Shown here in pieces: positions 897 through 38,365 of a DNA stretch of 43,115 nucleotides. Within the stretch, counting starts at the first letter, position 1; the number at the start of each line of letters is the position of its first letter. The notes beneath the pieces are model-generated. The model saw nothing but the letters and a program-made list of their open reading frames with translations, was not told where the DNA came from and made no database searches. This DNA is from Myxococcales bacterium (lineage in GTDB: Bacteria; Myxococcota_A; UBA9042): contig JAGSHB010000029.1 in the NCBI GenBank assembly GCA_023954815.1, positions 1 to 43,115 on the forward strand, written 5' to 3'. The translations under genes and the position numbers were made by a program.

Positions 897-1718
897 ATGA
901 ACCACACCGACTTCTTTGCGCTGCTCGACGGTCTCTCGCCGACCCACCTCGCTGATTCATGGGACAACGTAGGGCTGCTGCTGGAACCACCGCCTGTCAG
1001 GCCATCTGTGGCGCGCGTGCTCGTCGCGATCGATCTGACCGAACAGGTGCTTGAGGAGGCCTTGGCCTTCGATGCAGACGTCATTGTCGCCTACCACCCG
1101 GCGATCTTCTCTGGTCTCAAGCGGCTGACCCAGGCTGTGCCGTTGAGCCGTCGTATCCTCAAGCTCGCCTCCGCCGGCATCTCCCTCTGGTCACCCCACA
1201 CCGCCCTCGACGCGGTGCCTGGCGGCATGAACGACTGGTTGGCATCCGGTGTGGGACAAGCGACTGCGGTCACGCCACTGCAGCCCTGCGCCGCAGCACC
1301 CGAGCTCGCCGGTGCAGGTCTCGGCAGGCGCGTCACGCTGCGCGAGGCTCAGACGTTAGCGGTCCTGGTCAGTCGCCTGAAGACGCACCTGGGGATCGCA
1401 CACGTCCGCGTCGCCATGGCGCCAGACCACAAGGATCAGAGGCTCTCAGACATCGCGCTGTGTCCAGGCGCGGGCGGCTCGCTCTTTGCGCCCTTGCCAG
1501 GACCCACCGATGGCGGACCACAGCTCTATGTGACGGGGGAATGGGGCCACCACGACGTGCTTGCGAAGGTGGCTTCGGGCGCCAGTGTCATCTTGACGGA
1601 GCACAGCAACACAGAGCGCGGCTTCCTACCGACCTATGCGGCACGAATTGCGGCGGCAGCGCCTAGCATCGAGGTACGGGTATCGCAGACAGACGCCGAC
1701 CCGCTGACCGTGTGGTGA
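897..1718 (+). CDS. NIF3/DUF34 dinuclear-metal protein
   Basis: A 273-residue protein with the full NIF3 pattern: ADSWDNVGLLLE (19-30), AYHPAIFSGLKRLT (65-78), SPHTALDAVPGG (99-110), and a C-terminal GHHDVL followed by HSNTERG. Members bind two metal ions; a proposed hydrolase role is unresolved. Bacterial YbgI-type proteins usually carry a His-His pair in the first metal motif, whereas here it is Tyr-His (66-67). Tyr-His and HSNTERG are the forms seen in eukaryotic NIF3L1. The remaining ligands (H67, H101, D105 and the C-terminal His and Glu) are present. GGAG seven bases before the ATG supports the start. The gene converges on the PPC-domain gene. Confidence 0.9.
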   Translation: MNHTDFFALLDGLSPTHLADSWDNVGLLLEPPPVRPSVARVLVAIDLTEQVLEEALAFDADVIVAYHPAIFSGLKRLTQAVPLSRRILKLASAGISLWSPHTALDAVPGGMNDWLASGVGQATAVTPLQPCAAAPELAGAGLGRRVTLREAQTLAVLVSRLKTHLGIAHVRVAMAPDHKDQRLSDIALCPGAGGSLFAPLPGPTDGGPQLYVTGEWGHHDVLAKVASGASVILTEHSNTERGFLPTYAARIAAAAPSIEVRVSQTDADPLTVW

Positions 1719-29782: not shown

Positions 29783-29895
29783 CGCTCGCTCCTGCGTGGG
29801 TAACGCGCAGGATTCCAGCTTGGCAACGACGGCGCAACAGCCTCGCTCTTTCCTGTTTGCCGGAAGAAAATGCGGCGAACACAAGTTTTATTGAT

Positions 29896-29914
29896 ATTGA
29901 ATGTTGATTTCAAT
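29896..29914. promoter_or_regulatory. Fur-like inverted repeat operator candidate
   Basis: ATTGAA (29896-29901) and TTCAAT (29909-29914) form a 6-7-6 inverted repeat in an AT-rich island, overlapping the -35 element of the promoter at 29904-29931. Its 19-bp length and position suit a Fur-type repressor, and it precedes a DUF4856 gene and a FecA-like receptor. The match to the E. coli Fur consensus is only partial. Confidence 0.4.
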
Positions 29915-29931
29915 TGGCGGATGCCTATGCT
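29904..29931 (+). promoter_or_regulatory. Sigma-70-like promoter for the DUF4856 lipoprotein gene
   Basis: The -35 TTGATT (29904-29909) and -10 TATGCT (29926-29931) are 16 bp apart, in an AT-rich patch 38 bp upstream of the ATG. It is one of the few plausible sigma-70 promoters in this GC-rich window. Confidence 0.45.
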
Positions 29932-29968
29932 GCCTCCGCGCCCAAGTCGGCGTCTCAAGGAGACCTCC

Positions 29969-31405
29969 ATGTCACGGACTCAGACCCAGCTCTTGCTATG
30001 GCCCTGCGCTGCGTTGCTTTGCTTCAGCCTCGTTGGCTGCGGCAGCGATGCCGACGAGGACGAGGCAACCAAGGCGCCGCCGGCGACCTACGCCTTCGAT
30101 AGCCGTTTCGGCGATGGCGCCGGGGTGTCCTACAGCGGTCAGACCCATCGGCAGGTCCTGATGGTGGAGCTCGGCACCTGGATCGGCGGGCTGACGGCGG
30201 AGATCGACGGCGGCAAGGCCATGAACAAGGGCGACGTCGAGGCGGGCTGCGATTTTTACTACGCCTACGACGCGGCTGTGGGCGCGGAGGTGGTGCTCGC
30301 GATGACCACGACGCCGGGCGCCAAGCAGACCAAGTTTGGGCAGCTCTCGTCGAAGAACCTCAAGGGCAAGTTCGCGGGCAATGACCCTGTGGGCCAGCAC
30401 AAAGATTGGAAAAAGGACTTGGTTGGCTGGCCGAGTCAGCCGGCAGCGGAAGGGCTCCTGCGCGCTTGGATCACCGAGCTCGATGATGCGGCAGTCCAGC
30501 GCTCGGCAGGCAAGGCGGGTAAGGCGCCGGATGGCTCCGACCTCAAGCACGTCTTTGTCACCGAAAAAGGCCACGACTTGCAGCAGCTGATCACCAAGTT
30601 CTTGGGCGTTGCGGTGTCGTTTAGCCAGGCTGCTGACGACTACATGGACGATAGCGTTGAAGGAAAGGGGTTGCTCGCGGACAACACCAAGCCGGAAGCT
30701 GAAGGCAAGGGCTACACCGCCCTGGAGCATGCTTGGGACGAGGCGTGGGGCTACTTTGGCGCCGCGCGTGACTACGCCGACTACACAGACCACGAAATCG
30801 CGGGCAAGAGCGGTCGCGACGGGTACAAGCACGGCTATCACGACACCGATGGCGACGGAAAAATAGACCTGTTGAGCGAGAAGAACTTCGGGCATTCGGT
30901 CAACGCGGCCAAGCGGGATCGCGGCGCGCCGACAGATTTCACCAAGGCAGCTTTTGACGCCATGGTCGCCGGTCGTCACCTCATCACCACGGCGGGCGGC
31001 GCGCTCTCAGCCGCGCAGTTGACCGAACTGAAAAGCTACCGGGACGCCGCGGTTAAGGCCTGGGAGTCGGCGATCGCCGCCACGGTGGTGCACTACATCA
31101 ACGAGGTGTTGGTCGATGTGCACGCCATGGGCACGAAGGATTACGATTTCTACGACGCGGCCAAGCACTGGAGCGAGCTGAAGGGCTTTGCGCTCGGCTT
31201 TCAGTTCAACCCGCGGTCGCCCCTGTCAGCTATCGATTTTGCCAAGCTGCACAAGCTCATCGGCGCCGCTCCCGTGTTGCCGCCGGCGAACGCGGGCACC
31301 ACGGCGTACGCAAAGAAGCTCGTCGAGGCCCGCGCACTCATCGCAAAGGCGTACGGGTTCGAGACCGAATGGCTCGGTGACGACAAGGGCGCTGGCGGAT
31401 GGTGA
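29969..31405 (+). CDS. DUF4856-family lipoprotein
   Basis: A 478-residue lipoprotein (LVGC, C24). The mature part begins YAFDSRFGDGAGVSYSGQTHRQVLMVEL, the DUF4856 start. It contains LEHAWDEAWGYFGAARDY (252-269) and a Ca-binding-type loop D292-x-D294-x-D296-G-x-x-D300. DUF4856 proteins are mostly known from Bacteroidota, near imelysins and TonB receptors, so a role in iron handling at the cell surface is a reasonable inference. AAGGAG before the ATG at 29969 sets the start. It is followed 88 bp later by the TonB-dependent receptor. The promoter region shows an operator-like repeat. Confidence 0.82.
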   Translation: MSRTQTQLLLWPCAALLCFSLVGCGSDADEDEATKAPPATYAFDSRFGDGAGVSYSGQTHRQVLMVELGTWIGGLTAEIDGGKAMNKGDVEAGCDFYYAYDAAVGAEVVLAMTTTPGAKQTKFGQLSSKNLKGKFAGNDPVGQHKDWKKDLVGWPSQPAAEGLLRAWITELDDAAVQRSAGKAGKAPDGSDLKHVFVTEKGHDLQQLITKFLGVAVSFSQAADDYMDDSVEGKGLLADNTKPEAEGKGYTALEHAWDEAWGYFGAARDYADYTDHEIAGKSGRDGYKHGYHDTDGDGKIDLLSEKNFGHSVNAAKRDRGAPTDFTKAAFDAMVAGRHLITTAGGALSAAQLTELKSYRDAAVKAWESAIAATVVHYINEVLVDVHAMGTKDYDFYDAAKHWSELKGFALGFQFNPRSPLSAIDFAKLHKLIGAAPVLPPANAGTTAYAKKLVEARALIAKAYGFETEWLGDDKGAGGW

Positions 31406-31493: not shown

Positions 31494-33878
31494 ATGAAAC
31501 GCCCAGCAAAGATGTCGCCCACCTTCCCGGCCGTATGGCTCACCGCTGCGTGTGTTCTTTGCACGTCAAGCGCATTGGCGCAGCCAGAAGTGACCGCGCC
31601 TGCCACTGCCACGCGTGCCACCGCCGCGGTGCCGGCGCCTGCAGCGGTGACGCCGACGACCGCACCGCCCGCACCGGCCGCAGCGAATAAGCGTCGCGAA
31701 AAACGCTTCAAGACTCGCCGCAAGACCCGCCGCAAGCGTCGCCGTCGTCGTCGTCATGAGACCGGCGCGGTGCGGGTGTTGGGGCGGCGAGCGAAACGCG
31801 CAAAAGTGCCTGGAAGTGCCCATTTAGTAGGGGAAAAGCAGCTGAGCCGCTACGAGCATGACGATATTCACCGCGACTTGGCTGAGGTGCCAGGTGTCTA
31901 TGTGCGCGAGGAGGACGGCTACGGTTTGCGTCCCAATATCGGCATGCGCGGTGCCGCTGCTGAGCGCAGCGCCAAGGTGACCCTGATGGAGGATGGCGTC
32001 CTCATCGCACCTGGCCCGTACGCTGCCCCGGCTGCCTACTACTTCCCCTTGGTGACCCGCATGACCGGCCTTGAGGTGGTCAAGGGACCTGCTGCGATTC
32101 GCTTCGGCCCGTCGACAGTGGGTGGCGCGCTCAATCTGGTCAGCGCGCCCATTCCCAACAAACGAACGCTGCTGGTCGATTTGGCCGCCGGCAATACGAT
32201 GTACGGCAAGGCCCACTTGGCCTACGGCGACCGCACCAAACACGTCGGCTGGTGGCTGGAGGGCGTCGGCCTGCGCTCAGATGGGTTCAAGGAGCTCGAC
32301 GGCGGTGGACCGACGGGATTTACCAAGTGGGAGGGCGTCGCCAAGTTGAGCCTGAACACCGATGAGACCCGCAAGGTCAGCCACGCCCTGCACCTGCGCT
32401 TTGACGCCTCCAACGAGGAGAGCTCGGAGACCTACACCGGCCTATCCGATGCCGATTTTAAAGCGAACCCGTGGCGCCGCTACCTGGGCACCAAGGACGA
32501 CCTGCTCACTTGGAATCGCCAGAGCGCGCGGGCGCATTATGCGCTGCGTCTGGGCCAAGACACCCGCGTCAACGTCACGGCGTACCGGCATCAATTCGAG
32601 CGAACATGGACGAAACTGGCGCGTTTTGCCGCCGGTAAGGACATCGACGAGGTGCTCCACAAGCCGACCGCGGGTAGCAACGCCGTATTATACGGTGTGC
32701 TGACCGGTGCTGCAGACAGCACGGACGTATCCGAAGGGCTCGTGCTCGGGACCAACGCGCGCACCTACCTATCGCAGGGGGTGCAAGCTGAAGTGGATCA
32801 GAAGCTGACGACGGGGCAGGTGGGCGACAATCCGGTGACCCACGAAATCACGGCGGGGGTGCGCCTGCACTCCGATACTGTCGGCAGGAAGGCCACTGAA
32901 TCTGTGCGTCTCATGACCTCCGGTGAGCTGACAAAGTCGCAGACGCCAGATAAGACCGCACGGGACGCGACGGCTGAAGCCCTGGCGCTTGCCGTGTGGG
33001 CACAAGACACCGTGACCCTCGGTCGCTTGCGGCTGAGCGCTGGCGTTCGCATGGAGCATGTGCGCACGGGCTGGACGGATCATCAAGAGGACGATGCGGA
33101 GTCCAATGGCAGCTTTACAGCCGTGATTCCGGGCTTTGCAGCGCTGTACTCGCCGATGAAAGGGCTCGGGCTGCTCGCTGGCGTACACAAGGGATTTAGC
33201 CCGGTATCGCCAGGACAACCGGAAGGCACAAAGCCGGAGGAGAGCCTGAATTTCGAGGCCGGCGCGCGGTATCACGGCAAGAGAGTGCGCGCCGAGGTCA
33301 TTGGTTTTTTCAACAACTACAGCAATCTGAAAGGCACATGCACGTTCTCGTCGGGTTGTGGCGTGGGCGCCGTGGGCCAAGAGTTCAACGGCGGGCAGGT
33401 GTGGATCTACGGTGCTGAGGCGACCGCGGGTGTGCTGTGGGGCGGTCGCAAGGCCCTCAAGGTGCCGGTCAGCCTGACGTACACGCTGACGCAGAGCGAG
33501 TTCCAGGCGGGCTTTGAGTCCAGCAATCCGCAGTGGGGCAAGGTCAGCGTTGGCGATGCGCTCCCTTACGTACCCGTGCACCAACTCGCGCTCCATACCG
33601 GCGTGCGCGGCAAGCGGTGGGAGTTGGCCCTCAGTGGCCGCTATGCCTCGGCCATGCGGAACACCGCTGGGCAGGGGCCGGAGACGGACGACGATCGGCA
33701 CACCGACGCGACCCTCATCTTCGACGCCGCCGCTCACGTGCGCATCGGTAAGGTTGGCAAGCTCTACCTGACCGCCAAGAACCTCGCCGACAGCGCTCAG
33801 GTCGTGAGCTACCGGCCCTTTGGCGCCCGACCTGGTATGCGGCGGCTCGTGATGGTCGGCTTCAAGAAGCGATTTTAG
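31494..33878 (+). CDS. TonB-dependent receptor, FecA-like
   Basis: A 794-residue outer-membrane receptor. A signal peptide ends near ALA-Q (29-30). The plug (about 100-230) has REEDGYGLRPNIGMRGA, KVTLMEDGVLIAPGPYAAPAAYYFP and GPAAIRFGPSTVGGALNLV, as in Fe(III)-dicitrate receptors. The barrel follows and ends GFKKRF. Residues 31-65 are Ala/Pro/Thr-rich, and 66-88 contain about 18 Lys/Arg/His in 23 positions, which is very unusual before a plug. There is no FecA-type N-terminal signalling domain. Only a weak SD precedes the ATG. It probably imports a ferric chelate and is co-transcribed with the DUF4856 gene. Confidence 0.93.
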   Translation: MKRPAKMSPTFPAVWLTAACVLCTSSALAQPEVTAPATATRATAAVPAPAAVTPTTAPPAPAAANKRREKRFKTRRKTRRKRRRRRRHETGAVRVLGRRAKRAKVPGSAHLVGEKQLSRYEHDDIHRDLAEVPGVYVREEDGYGLRPNIGMRGAAAERSAKVTLMEDGVLIAPGPYAAPAAYYFPLVTRMTGLEVVKGPAAIRFGPSTVGGALNLVSAPIPNKRTLLVDLAAGNTMYGKAHLAYGDRTKHVGWWLEGVGLRSDGFKELDGGGPTGFTKWEGVAKLSLNTDETRKVSHALHLRFDASNEESSETYTGLSDADFKANPWRRYLGTKDDLLTWNRQSARAHYALRLGQDTRVNVTAYRHQFERTWTKLARFAAGKDIDEVLHKPTAGSNAVLYGVLTGAADSTDVSEGLVLGTNARTYLSQGVQAEVDQKLTTGQVGDNPVTHEITAGVRLHSDTVGRKATESVRLMTSGELTKSQTPDKTARDATAEALALAVWAQDTVTLGRLRLSAGVRMEHVRTGWTDHQEDDAESNGSFTAVIPGFAALYSPMKGLGLLAGVHKGFSPVSPGQPEGTKPEESLNFEAGARYHGKRVRAEVIGFFNNYSNLKGTCTFSSGCGVGAVGQEFNGGQVWIYGAEATAGVLWGGRKALKVPVSLTYTLTQSEFQAGFESSNPQWGKVSVGDALPYVPVHQLALHTGVRGKRWELALSGRYASAMRNTAGQGPETDDDRHTDATLIFDAAAHVRIGKVGKLYLTAKNLADSAQVVSYRPFGARPGMRRLVMVGFKKRF

Positions 33879-33940
33879 CGAGTCGACCAACAGTGGTCAT
33901 TGCGCTGCCACATGGGCGAGTGGTGAGGAATTCATCAAAC

Positions 33941-33980
33941 ACCAGTCGTTGTTGTGTATTTATACAACACAACCCTGGTT
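33941..33980. promoter_or_regulatory. Imperfect 40-bp inverted repeat
   Basis: ACCAG ends the left arm and CTGGT the right arm. The arms run inward as GTTGTTGTGTA and TACAACACAAC around a TTTA centre, with a few mismatches. It could be a terminator for the receptor gene or a distal activator site for the sigma-54 promoter about 200 bp downstream. The latter is speculative. Confidence 0.4.
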
Positions 33981-34031
33981 CCGCTGTCATGGCGCAGGTG
34001 CGGTCAGCGGCGTGTCGATGAGCGTAGAGCT

Positions 34032-34050
34032 CGATTTCTCAGGGAAATCG
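34032..34050. promoter_or_regulatory. Palindrome, candidate enhancer-binding-protein site
   Basis: CGATTTC (34032-34038) and GAAATCG (34044-34050) are perfect inverted repeats around TCAGG. The centre lies about 143 bp upstream of the predicted start of the sigma-54 transcript, within the usual distance for a bacterial enhancer-binding protein. Function is inferred from position only. Confidence 0.5.
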
Positions 34051-34157
34051 CGACGCATCGCACACGGACGTTTTCCTACATCATGACAGAGAGTTAGGCT
34101 TGGTGTGGTGCTCAGATGACGGGCCGGCGTCACCTTCGAACCGTCGGAGCGAGCCGC

Positions 34158-34173
34158 TGGCACGACCCTTGCT
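34158..34173 (+). promoter_or_regulatory. Sigma-54 (RpoN) -24/-12 promoter
   Basis: TGGCACGACCCTTGCT fits the TGGCACG-N4-TTGCW consensus at every defined base, with the invariant GG and GC at the right 12-bp distance. Transcription should start near 34184, giving a leader of about 90 nt for the Kazal lipoprotein gene at 34275. Expression then depends on an ATP-driven activator that is not encoded in this window. Confidence 0.85.
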
Positions 34174-34274
34174 TTATATAGCTATCGAAGGCAGACCGGC
34201 GCGCGGCCGGCTCAGCGCTATCGCTGACTGCCACAGCACACGGGCCCGGTTGGGTCGATGCTCAGGAGTCTCCC

Positions 34275-35675
34275 ATGAAGAAGCACCTCTCTATCCTCCT
34301 GCTGAGCGCGCTCGGGCTCGCAGCTTGCGGCACGCCGACAACCGATGCGGCGCCGACGGATACGGGTTCGCAAGCCGATGGCACGAGCGCTGACGGCACG
34401 AGCGCTGACAGCACGGCGACTGATGGCAACACTAGCGACGGGACCTCCTCGGACGCCGTCTCCTCAGATGCTGCGGCTTCCGATGCGGTGGCCACGGACG
34501 CCGGGACGGCAGATGCGGGCGCTGGTGGGGACAATTGTCAGTTGGGTGGCAGCTCTTCCGGCGACAAAGCGCCCTGCCCGACCGATAGCTTTTGCAAGCT
34601 CTCCGCCACAAATTCCTGTGGCGGCGCAGGCAAGTGCACTCCCAAACCATCCATGTGTACCAAGGAGCTCGCCAAGGTGTGCGGTTGTGATGGCAAGGAC
34701 TACGACAATGCCTGCAAGGCCAGTGCAGCTGGCTCAAACATCGCCCACACTGGAGGCTGCGCGGGGGCGTGCACCGTGCCCAGTGCGGCTGCGAGTGGCG
34801 ACGCTAAGCAGGGCACCACGTGCGCAGACAAGCAGTACTGCGGGGGCGCCTGCGGCAAGCCCGGCGCGTGCAAAATGAAGCCCACCGCTTGCGCGAAGAT
34901 CTATGCGCCGGTCTGTGGCTGCGACGGCAAGACCTACGAGAACGAGTGCAGTGCCAACAGCGCCGGCGTCTCGATGGACTACACCGGCAAATGTAAACCC
35001 AAGGGCACCGAGTGCGCGGTCGGGACCGCTGCGGTTGGTTGCGCGAAAGGGCAGTTCTGTGCGCTGCCGTCTGACAGTTGTTCAGGCAAGGGTGTTTGTA
35101 CCGAAATCTCGACCAATACGCCGTGTGATGCCCAATACAAGCCCGTCTGTGGCTGCGATGGCAAGACCTACGGCAACGCTTGTTCGGCGAAGGTCGCCGG
35201 CATCAACGTGGCCGCTCAGGGTGAGTGTAAGGAGCCGAAAGGCTGCTGCACCACCGCCAAGGACTGTGGCGTCGGTGCGAGCTGCATCGGCCCGGCGGGC
35301 AAAGCGGTCTGCAAAGGCCTCGGCAATCCGACCACTGGCGCGTGCTGGGGCGACTCCCAGTGCCCGACCGGCAGCACCTGCGAGGGCGAACAGGTCTGCC
35401 CGTGCGGCGTGAGTTGCCTCGTTCCCGACAAGCAGGGCACCTGCAAGAAGACGTTGAAACCCAAAGGTTGTGACGCCTGCACGGCAAGCGAGTACTGCAA
35501 GTACGTCACACCTAATACGTGCAGCGGCGCCGGCACCTGCACCACCAAGCCTGGGTTATGTGCGGGCATCTACAAGCCGGTCTGCGGCTGTGATGGCAAG
35601 ACGTATAGCAATGCCTGTGGAGCCGCCGCGGCCGGTAGGAATGTGGCGAGTGAGGGCGGGTGCAAGGCACCGTAG
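34275..35675 (+). CDS. Lipoprotein with four Kazal-type modules
   Basis: A 466-residue protein with a lipoprotein signal (LAAC, C18) and a Thr/Ser/Asp/Ala linker with short repeats (25-85). Four Kazal-like domains lie at 128-162, 206-240, 284-318 and 429-463, each 'C..(I/Y)..VCGCDGK.Y.N.C...(A)G........C'. Each is preceded by a short Cys-rich segment (C...(F/Y)C...G.C). Units 1-3 repeat every 78 residues; an extra Cys-rich block (about 324-390) separates 3 and 4. Kazal domains inhibit serine proteases. A tethered array could shield the cell or act on other cells, which is inference. CAGGAG lies eight bases before the ATG. Confidence 0.9.
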   Translation: MKKHLSILLLSALGLAACGTPTTDAAPTDTGSQADGTSADGTSADSTATDGNTSDGTSSDAVSSDAAASDAVATDAGTADAGAGGDNCQLGGSSSGDKAPCPTDSFCKLSATNSCGGAGKCTPKPSMCTKELAKVCGCDGKDYDNACKASAAGSNIAHTGGCAGACTVPSAAASGDAKQGTTCADKQYCGGACGKPGACKMKPTACAKIYAPVCGCDGKTYENECSANSAGVSMDYTGKCKPKGTECAVGTAAVGCAKGQFCALPSDSCSGKGVCTEISTNTPCDAQYKPVCGCDGKTYGNACSAKVAGINVAAQGECKEPKGCCTTAKDCGVGASCIGPAGKAVCKGLGNPTTGACWGDSQCPTGSTCEGEQVCPCGVSCLVPDKQGTCKKTLKPKGCDACTASEYCKYVTPNTCSGAGTCTTKPGLCAGIYKPVCGCDGKTYSNACGAAAAGRNVASEGGCKAP

Positions 35676-35710
35676 CCTCCGGCACGAACGCGCGGTGACC
35701 CCTGCCATAA

Positions 35711-35724
35711 AAAGTTTGAACTTT
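35711..35724. promoter_or_regulatory. AT-rich palindrome upstream of a lipoprotein gene
   Basis: AAAGTT-TG-AACTTT is an almost contiguous palindrome that runs into TTGACA (35723-35728) in the 100-bp gap before the gene at 35777. TTGACA has TATGAT 22 bp downstream, too far for a normal promoter. It could be an operator or part of a promoter for the lipoprotein-cytochrome pair. Confidence 0.3.
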
Positions 35725-35776
35725 GACAACACATGCCGTTTGCGAACACCTATGATGGCCCAAACGGAGTGACTTC

Positions 35777-36328
35777 ATGGGCCCGCTCGCCACCACACCG
35801 ATGCTGACACGACACCTCGCGGCGCTGTTGTTGGTCGGTGCGTTGTGGGGGTTGCCGAGCTGCGGCACGGAGATCTTGTACGTCGACCCGCCCTTTTCCT
35901 ATGACGTTTCACACACCGGCTGCGGCGGCGAATTAGCCGTGTTCATGGGGATGTACGAGGAGCAGATCTACAATGACTTCACCGAGGTCGCCGAGCTTTC
36001 TATCGTCGACGGCTTACAAGGTGGCACGTGGTGCATGCCCGCCATACGTACCTGGGGCTTGAAAAACCCGGTGCGCCTCAAAGCGACCGTGACCACGTCA
36101 GAAGGTGAGCAGGTCGGGTTGACGGTGCTGCAGAACCTGCGTCTGATCTTGTCCCCCGACGGGGCGTGTGAGGTGCTGGCCCTGCCGATCCCGATCACCC
36201 ACCCATCTAATCCCACCGCAGAGATCGACGATCTCTTCGGCAAGGAGGCGCGGATCGAGGTGGAAATTCGCGATGCGGATGGCGTGGTGGGCAAGCATGC
36301 CGCCGACATCAAACTGGTTCAGGGATGA
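35777..36328 (+). CDS. Small putative lipoprotein
   Basis: A 183-residue protein with a lipoprotein signal (LPSC). The mature part has CGGELAVFMG and an Ig-like run of strands (NPVRLKATVTTSEGEQVGLTVLQNLRL, EARIEVEIRDADG). I do not recognise a family. GGAG eight bases before the ATG at 35777 supports the start; an inner ATG at 35801 is possible. It ends 12 bp before the multihaem lipoprotein and is likely co-transcribed with it, so it may be a partner subunit. Confidence 0.72.
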   Translation: MGPLATTPMLTRHLAALLLVGALWGLPSCGTEILYVDPPFSYDVSHTGCGGELAVFMGMYEEQIYNDFTEVAELSIVDGLQGGTWCMPAIRTWGLKNPVRLKATVTTSEGEQVGLTVLQNLRLILSPDGACEVLALPIPITHPSNPTAEIDDLFGKEARIEVEIRDADGVVGKHAADIKLVQG

Positions 36329-36340
36329 GGAGGCGGTGAC

Positions 36341-38365
36341 GTGACTTGTCCGCGCGGTGGCGCCAAAACCCTTGAAAATCAGCATTTTCGCGCTGTTCGG
36401 TCGAGATTTGCGTCGCGGCGACTCGTCGGTTTGGTGGCCCTGATCGCGCTGTCTGTCCTGCTAACGCTGGGTTGTACCCGTGTCGAAGAGCGGGTGTTGG
36501 AGCGCCCGTCCTGTGAGGTGTGCCATAGCCCGCTCAACAAGAAGGGCCATCCGGTCGGCATCGAACAGGCGCACCCATGGAAGGAGCTGGCCTGCGTCGC
36601 CTGTCACGGCGGTAATCCGGACTCTCTGATCAAGGAAGAAGCCCACGTTCCACCGAGCAAGGCGCCGTTCATCGAGAAGACCTACCTGAAGAACCTAAAA
36701 TCCGCTGAGCTCGACAAGGTCGATCCGGCCTACCTGCAGTTCATCAATCCCGGCGACTTGCGCGTGGCGGCCAAGAGCTGCGGCGGCGAGGGCTGTCATG
36801 CCGAGACGGTGGACAAGGTCAAGCGCTCGATGATGGCGCACACCTCCGGCGAGGTGACGGTCGCGCGCTATCGGGCCGGTGCCCAGAAGACGCCATATGG
36901 CTATCTCGGTGCCATGCCGCTGGTCGATCCCGATCCAGATCTAGGCCTGCCGACCACGGTGACCTCCATCGGTCGGTTTGATCCCAAGCCGCTGACGAAA
37001 GACGCCACATTTGGCGACTACCAAGACCACTACATGATCAAGAGTTGCTTTCGCTGCCACATCAACGATTTTGGCGAGAACAAATTCCAGGCGGATTACC
37101 GGTCGAGCGGCTGCACGGCCTGCCACATGGTCTACGGCGACGAGGGTCTGTCGGAGTCCAAAGATCCGACCATCAACAAGGACGCGCCGCCCCACCCGCT
37201 CAAGCACAAGCTGACCAGCGCCATCCCGACCAATCAGTGCATGCATTGCCACTACCGCGGTGCGCGTATCGGCATTAGCTACCTCGGCTTCAGAGAGAGT
37301 GGCGGTAACGGCTTTAACCCCAAGAATCCGGGCGTTTTGGGCAAAGCGATCCACGGCCACGACGCCACGTACTATGTGCAAGACGAGGACACGACCAACA
37401 ACTGGGACGAGACGCCGCCGGACATTCACGCCGAAAAGGGCATGCACTGCATCGACTGTCACACGAAACACGACGTGCACGGCGATGGTCACCTCTACAG
37501 CGACACCCTCAACCAGATCGAGGTGCGGTGTGAGGATTGCCATGGCGACCACAAGACTGAGACCAGCCTGCTGACCTCGCAAAACCGCAAGTTCGACCAC
37601 ATGTGGAAGGACAAGGACGGCAAGGTGTGGCTCAAAGGCAAGATCGACGGGAAGGTTCACCCCGTCACTCAGGTCAAGCGGCTCATCGACAAGAACAGTC
37701 CGGAGTACAGCGAAGGTGCGGACAAGGCGATGGGATTCGACAAGAACGGCTTTTCCCACCTCGACAAGCTCGAGTGCTACACCTGCCACTCGGACTGGAT
37801 GCAGAGCTGCTACGGTTGCCACGTTACCCTGGATCTGAGCCGCGACGCCCCGGCGCTGACCACAGGCCAGATCACCCCAGGCAAGCCCAGCGGTAAGCGC
37901 AAATGGGTCGCGATCAACGACCTGACGTTGATGTGGGGCGTGCGCGGCAAGATCACGCCGTCCATGCCGTCAGAGCGCTTTTTCCTCACGGTCATCGACA
38001 AAGACGGCAAGACCAAGCTCATGGACAATCAGCCGCGCATGGGCGCCGGTGGGATTCCTGGCAAGAGCGGTATGGGGGCGAGGGCGGTCAACCCACACAC
38101 CACCCGCAGCTTTGGGCGCTTTTCTATCTGCAAGAAATGTCACTTGAAAAAGGACGGCAGTAACAAGAAAGAGGTCGAGGCGACCTGGGGGTTTGGCAGC
38201 GATAAGTACTTGTTCAAAGACGGCAACGGCAAGACGTGGCGCCAAGATCAGCTCATCACCTACGACTACAAGTCTCAGGTGACCACGGGCCACGACGATC
38301 CGGAGCCGTCCCGGCCGCTCGACAAGAAGACCATCGAGAAGCTGAAAACGATCCTTGTCCCCTGA
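36341..38365 (+). CDS. Eleven-haem c-type cytochrome lipoprotein
   Basis: A 674-residue protein starting at a GTG eight bases after AGGAGG. A long N-terminal segment leads to a lipobox (LTLGC, C45). Ten CXXCH haem motifs begin at C58, C85, C236, C258, C300, C370, C397, C479, C490 and C596. One CX4CH (C147-H153) is a likely eleventh. Many other His residues could serve as distal ligands. It should be matured by the cytochrome c biogenesis system and sit on the periplasmic or outer face of the outer membrane, passing electrons. The electron donor and acceptor are not evident. No quinol dehydrogenase or porin partner is adjacent. The small lipoprotein upstream is the only operon partner. Confidence 0.93.
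   Translation: MTCPRGGAKTLENQHFRAVRSRFASRRLVGLVALIALSVLLTLGCTRVEERVLERPSCEVCHSPLNKKGHPVGIEQAHPWKELACVACHGGNPDSLIKEEAHVPPSKAPFIEKTYLKNLKSAELDKVDPAYLQFINPGDLRVAAKSCGGEGCHAETVDKVKRSMMAHTSGEVTVARYRAGAQKTPYGYLGAMPLVDPDPDLGLPTTVTSIGRFDPKPLTKDATFGDYQDHYMIKSCFRCHINDFGENKFQADYRSSGCTACHMVYGDEGLSESKDPTINKDAPPHPLKHKLTSAIPTNQCMHCHYRGARIGISYLGFRESGGNGFNPKNPGVLGKAIHGHDATYYVQDEDTTNNWDETPPDIHAEKGMHCIDCHTKHDVHGDGHLYSDTLNQIEVRCEDCHGDHKTETSLLTSQNRKFDHMWKDKDGKVWLKGKIDGKVHPVTQVKRLIDKNSPEYSEGADKAMGFDKNGFSHLDKLECYTCHSDWMQSCYGCHVTLDLSRDAPALTTGQITPGKPSGKRKWVAINDLTLMWGVRGKITPSMPSERFFLTVIDKDGKTKLMDNQPRMGAGGIPGKSGMGARAVNPHTTRSFGRFSICKKCHLKKDGSNKKEVEATWGFGSDKYLFKDGNGKTWRQDQLITYDYKSQVTTGHDDPEPSRPLDKKTIEKLKTILVP

Follow-up and report, generated by a model that had tools for sequence, protein, structure and literature searches.

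The window, 43,115 nucleotides long, makes up contig C165 of a genome (G000) that comprises 6.44 Mb in 314 contigs. It contains an intergenic gap between a gene for a TonB-dependent receptor and a gene for a 466-aa lipoprotein. The gap and its surroundings hold the following features.

31494 to 33878, plus strand: TonB-dependent receptor, the conserved anchor gene upstream (profile match, genus-wide presence)
About 33941 to 33980, unstranded: weak imperfect inverted repeat or hairpin after the receptor gene (fold, shuffles)
34032 to 34050, unstranded: 7-5-7 palindrome CGATTTCTCAGGGAAATCG, proposed as an activator site, a role that is unsupported
34158 to 34173, plus strand: sigma-54 -24/-12 promoter core TGGCACGACCCTTGCT (sequence, conservation and spacing in a relative)
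34184, plus strand: predicted transcription start, placed from the -24/-12 positions
34264 to 34268, plus strand: ribosome-binding site AGGAG, 6 nt before the ATG
34275 to 35675, plus strand: lipoprotein with four Kazal domains and a stalk rich in D, T, S and A (Pfam; lipobox read by eye)
35777 to 36328, plus strand: p183, lipoprotein-like and possibly co-transcribed (also follows the Kazal gene in a relative)
36341 to 38365, plus strand: lipoprotein-like cytochrome with ten CxxCH motifs, possibly co-transcribed (sequence)

The sigma-54 consensus of Myxococcus xanthus has been given as TGGCACG-4N-TTGC(T/A) (PMC7910581), and the intergenic core TGGCACGACCCTTGCT matches this pattern, TGGCACG-N4-TTGC(T/A), without a mismatch, whereas 100 dinucleotide shuffles of the window contained on average 0.03 exact cores. 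The GG lies at 34159-34160 and the GC at 34171-34172, positions that agree with the start near 34184 predicted in the first-pass annotation, and the first base of the site is 117 nt from the lipoprotein ATG. The machinery that such a promoter would require is encoded in the same genome: RpoN is present, and the sigma-54 activator profile PF00158 has 23 matches (19 above 90 bits and four marginal), none of them on the window contig.

Is the site retained in relatives? The TonB receptor occurs in all four genomes of the genus, including our own. In G003, whose receptor is 77% identical to that of the window, the same gap contains TGGCACGGCCCTTGCT, followed by a lipoprotein start whose ATG is again 117 nt from the first base of the site. 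No other 18-mer of the two gaps is as well conserved as the one around the site, with 17 of 18 matches against 13-15 in six shuffles, and the remainder of the gap aligns poorly. The G003 contig (C493) ends within the stalk, and the Kazal C-terminus, p183, the cytochrome and an S41 peptidase lie on C86; because of this gene order, we infer that the two fragments belong to one gene. The promoter is thus conserved in the one relative with a start of the orthologous gene (1/1), this being the single known relative with both gene and site and its gene being split between two contigs. In G002, the S41 gene directly follows the receptor, with neither Kazal gene nor site there, and in G001, a genome 67% complete, the receptor is followed by different genes and both are likewise absent at that place. 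Next to the TonB receptor, therefore, the site and the Kazal gene travel together, the site being present in both genomes with the gene and absent from both without it.

A search of the four genus genomes with the relaxed pattern TGGCAYR-N4-TTGCW gave 46 matches against nine for the reversed control (16 v 3 in G000, 5 v 0 in G001, 8 v 1 in G002 and 17 v 5 in G003). The three reversed matches in G000 imply that a few of its 16 sites must be due to chance, and they lend some weight to the reading that 34158-34173 is itself a chance match without promoter function. We regard that reading as very improbable, in view of the conserved site and spacing in G003, the intergenic position and the low number of exact cores expected per window. 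Because a related bacterium has the site at the same position, the promoter is very probably genuine, and the exact RpoN-type site that the first-pass annotation had recognized is borne out. That the Kazal lipoprotein gene is under sigma-54 control is, as a prediction, well supported by the site, its conservation in G003, rpoN and the activator genes, and we conclude with considerable confidence that 34158-34173 is a working sigma-54 promoter of this gene. RpoN-RNA polymerase would form a closed complex at the -24/-12 site, and transcription would start near 34184 only after remodelling by an ATP-hydrolysing enhancer-binding protein bound at another site.

Where might such a protein bind? An enhancer role had been suggested for two upstream palindromes, both of which are present but neither of which is supported in that role. 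The distance of the 7-5-7 palindrome CGATTTCTCAGGGAAATCG, which is centred at about -143, is usual for activator-binding sites, and its perfect 7-bp arms are what a binding site of the cognate activator could look like. In addition, of the 46 stretches that precede sigma-54-like sites, 11 contain a perfect-arm repeat, where 100 shuffled sets averaged 5.83 and the best of them reached 12; this excess is weak, and the repeat sequence differs at each promoter. Against this reading, CGATTTC-N5-GAAATCG occurs once in the 6.44-Mb genome, so that a search for it at other sigma-54 promoters, proposed with the original claim, yields no second copy; the palindrome is absent from the gap of G003, the one relative with the promoter, a lack of conservation that the first-pass annotation had itself named as counter-evidence; and one or more perfect repeats with 7-bp arms and a loop of up to 10 turn up in 15.6% of shuffled versions of the region. 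We therefore consider it unlikely that the cognate activator binds at 34032-34050. No gapped word recurred across a set of 18 representative upstream regions more widely than in five shuffled sets, and on this result, together with the single genomic occurrence, we reject the palindrome as an operator common to these promoters.

The imperfect inverted repeat of 40 bp is found at about 33941-33980, as described, and 12 of its 20 ungapped positions pair; since 41% of shuffles reach that number, it is ruled out as a significant palindrome. The segment folds as RNA into a hairpin of modest stability (-12.7 kcal/mol, z -2.3) about 60-100 nt after the stop codon of the TonB-receptor gene. An equivalent hairpin ending the receptor transcript of G003 was ruled out, the fold there being no better than in shuffles.

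The product of the gene was correctly anticipated as a lipoprotein with modules resembling protease inhibitors. Pfam Kazal_1 matches four stretches (E 2e-26) and Kazal_2 also matches (1.5e-15), with domain cores at residues 128, 206, 284 and 429, and a signal peptide with a lipobox, LAAC-G (MKKHLSILLLSALGLAAC-G), was read by eye. Among proteins in the PDB, its sequence relatives are ovomucoid, leech tryptase inhibitor, infestin and SPINK1. The residue two positions after the first Cys of the motif, which we take to be P1 by Kazal numbering, is K, K, A and G in the four domains; the two domains present in the G003 fragment have K and M there. The product would be anchored by lipid, probably in the outer membrane, and would present its four Kazal modules on a flexible stalk; its probable role is to inhibit serine proteases at the cell surface or outside it.

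The promoter might also drive a longer transcript that continues from the Kazal lipoprotein through p183 (no Pfam match) to the decahaem cytochrome, in which case the locus would serve extracytoplasmic redox or metal handling with the Kazal protein as one surface component. The three genes are co-oriented, all encode predicted envelope proteins and stand in the same order in G003; no terminator-like site was found in 33700-35900, only 12 nt separate p183 from the cytochrome gene, and a TonB receptor lies upstream. However, a 101-nt gap precedes p183, and G002 has p183 and the cytochrome together, at a place away from the receptor, without a Kazal gene or an upstream sigma-54-like site, so that the pair can be expressed otherwise. 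On balance, we hold the longer transcript to be a real possibility, with chances somewhat short of even. The cytochrome is distantly similar to ExtM of selenite and tellurite reduction operons, its score of 197 bits falling short of the 800-bit cut-off. Among 22 genomes of the order it occurs, paired with p183, in three, and all three belong to this genus. On the other side of the gap, a DUF4856 lipoprotein-like protein (29870-31405), conserved in G003, is encoded just before the TonB receptor, with which it perhaps forms a metal-uptake pair.

The sigma-54 site is not a general feature of the Kazal loci examined. Kazal matches were found in 35 of the 36 genomes searched in the class (own included), and none of 19 other Kazal loci from relatives had a strict sigma-54 site; these loci extend no more than 1.5 kb past the match, so that some may miss the gene start, and they include the G003 fragment, the start of which is on another contig. 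The contigs carrying our genome's own Kazal paralogues (C5, C171, C173 and C264) are not among the 16 site-bearing contigs. On the basis of these loci and contigs, we reject a Kazal-wide sigma-54 regulon.

The other sigma-54-like sites of the genus suggest, at most, an envelope or stress theme among the predicted targets; no result singles out development, starvation or contact with other cells, the conditions of induction suggested in the first-pass annotation. In G000, where gene names are a reading of translations rather than the result of a family search, five sites precede lipoprotein genes (L029, L031, L032, L034 and L039), and others precede gspC (L038), rpoH (L030), comM (L033), the gene for a small membrane protein (L035) and, doubtfully, feoAB (L028). 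The remaining six have no close coding start (L026, L027, L036, L037, L040 and L041, the last before msrA). The site accompanies gspC in all four genus genomes (L038, L070, L063 and L062), rpoH in three (L030, L078 and L051) and a beta-propeller lipoprotein gene also in three; the Kazal gene, a WD-like lipoprotein gene, comM and msrA have it in two genomes each.

Unexpectedly, several of these sites stand before conserved, structured non-coding RNAs, the conserved sequence ending in a T-run. The segments concerned are as follows.

L037, L055 and L060, each 1205-1490, minus strand: family A RNA (alignment covariation)
L041, 1527-1775, and L075, 1527-1790, plus strand: family D, about 250 nt, non-coding (conservation)
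L026 and L027, each 1302-1490, minus strand, and L072, 258-446, plus strand: a further conserved non-coding family with a T-run end
L036 and L071, after the site: another conserved non-coding family with a T-run end

Family A directly follows the site, is about 240-270 nt long and has a closing helix, internal hairpins and a strong terminator; a paralogue follows the site in L040. Across three sequences, 23 of its 71 consensus pairs are changed on both sides, a count that none of 500 shuffles and no slid version came near, the structure being derived from the same alignment as the count. By blastn, it occurs in three of 36 genomes (own included), and we propose it as a candidate new small-RNA family. 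Covariation in family B is weaker (7 of 56 pairs). Family D, which is 84% identical between G000 and G003 and was found in two of 36 genomes (own included), lies between the sigma-54-like site and msrA and could be either a leader or a separate RNA. Rfam, tRNA and tmRNA searches of the RNA-bearing loci gave nothing at curated thresholds; two matches, at E 0.04 and 0.4, are far below the cut-offs of their families.

We speculate that sigma-54 governs an envelope programme in the genus, coupling the Kazal inhibitor and other lipoproteins to gspC (type II secretion) and rpoH and including several undescribed structured small RNAs with their own sigma-54 promoters and terminators; this broad scheme is tentative, and we think it rather improbable as a whole. 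For the locus itself, a bacterial Kazal lipoprotein gains a defined, signal-gated promoter that is kept in a relative, so that a specific activator and signal could be connected with its expression. At the level of the genus, genome comparison sketches the sigma-54 targets of an uncultured lineage, new candidate RNAs among them. Within the literature searched, both this kind of promoter and the association of sigma-54 with the cell exterior are already in print, and what is new is this target and the RNAs, the latter being a fresher lead than the promoter. Literature searches (open literature; result listings) retrieved no study of a bacterial Kazal lipoprotein, and a search of the open literature found no paper with both Kazal and rpoN; the literature naming Kazal and myxobacteria together is, from the portions available, about pacifastins and lung cancer.

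How does this locus compare with known systems? The Kazal modules share the cysteine pattern, the core motif and detectable sequence similarity with ovomucoid, leech tryptase inhibitor, infestin and SPINK1; unlike those inhibitors, they stand in tandem on a bacterial lipoprotein and have an extra Cys in the VCGCDG core, and their inhibition is predicted. Sigma-54 has been described as a controller of the bacterial exterior (PMC3162934), and an association of sigma-54 with the type II secretion system, the COGs of which are enriched in Myxococcia, has been reported (PMC12316311). The lipoproteins, gspC and small RNAs among the predicted targets in this genus resemble the themes of these two papers, but no Kazal protein is named in the parts of either that were accessible, and the term 'protease inhibitor' has no occurrence in the available text of PMC3162934. 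A further parallel is with the promoters of Myxococcus xanthus (PMC7910581, as far as its text was available), where mutational tests covered the activator as well as its sites, whereas the promoter of the window is predicted from sequence; the two systems have an identical consensus and many activators in the genome, and relatives of the window are assigned to the Myxococcales.
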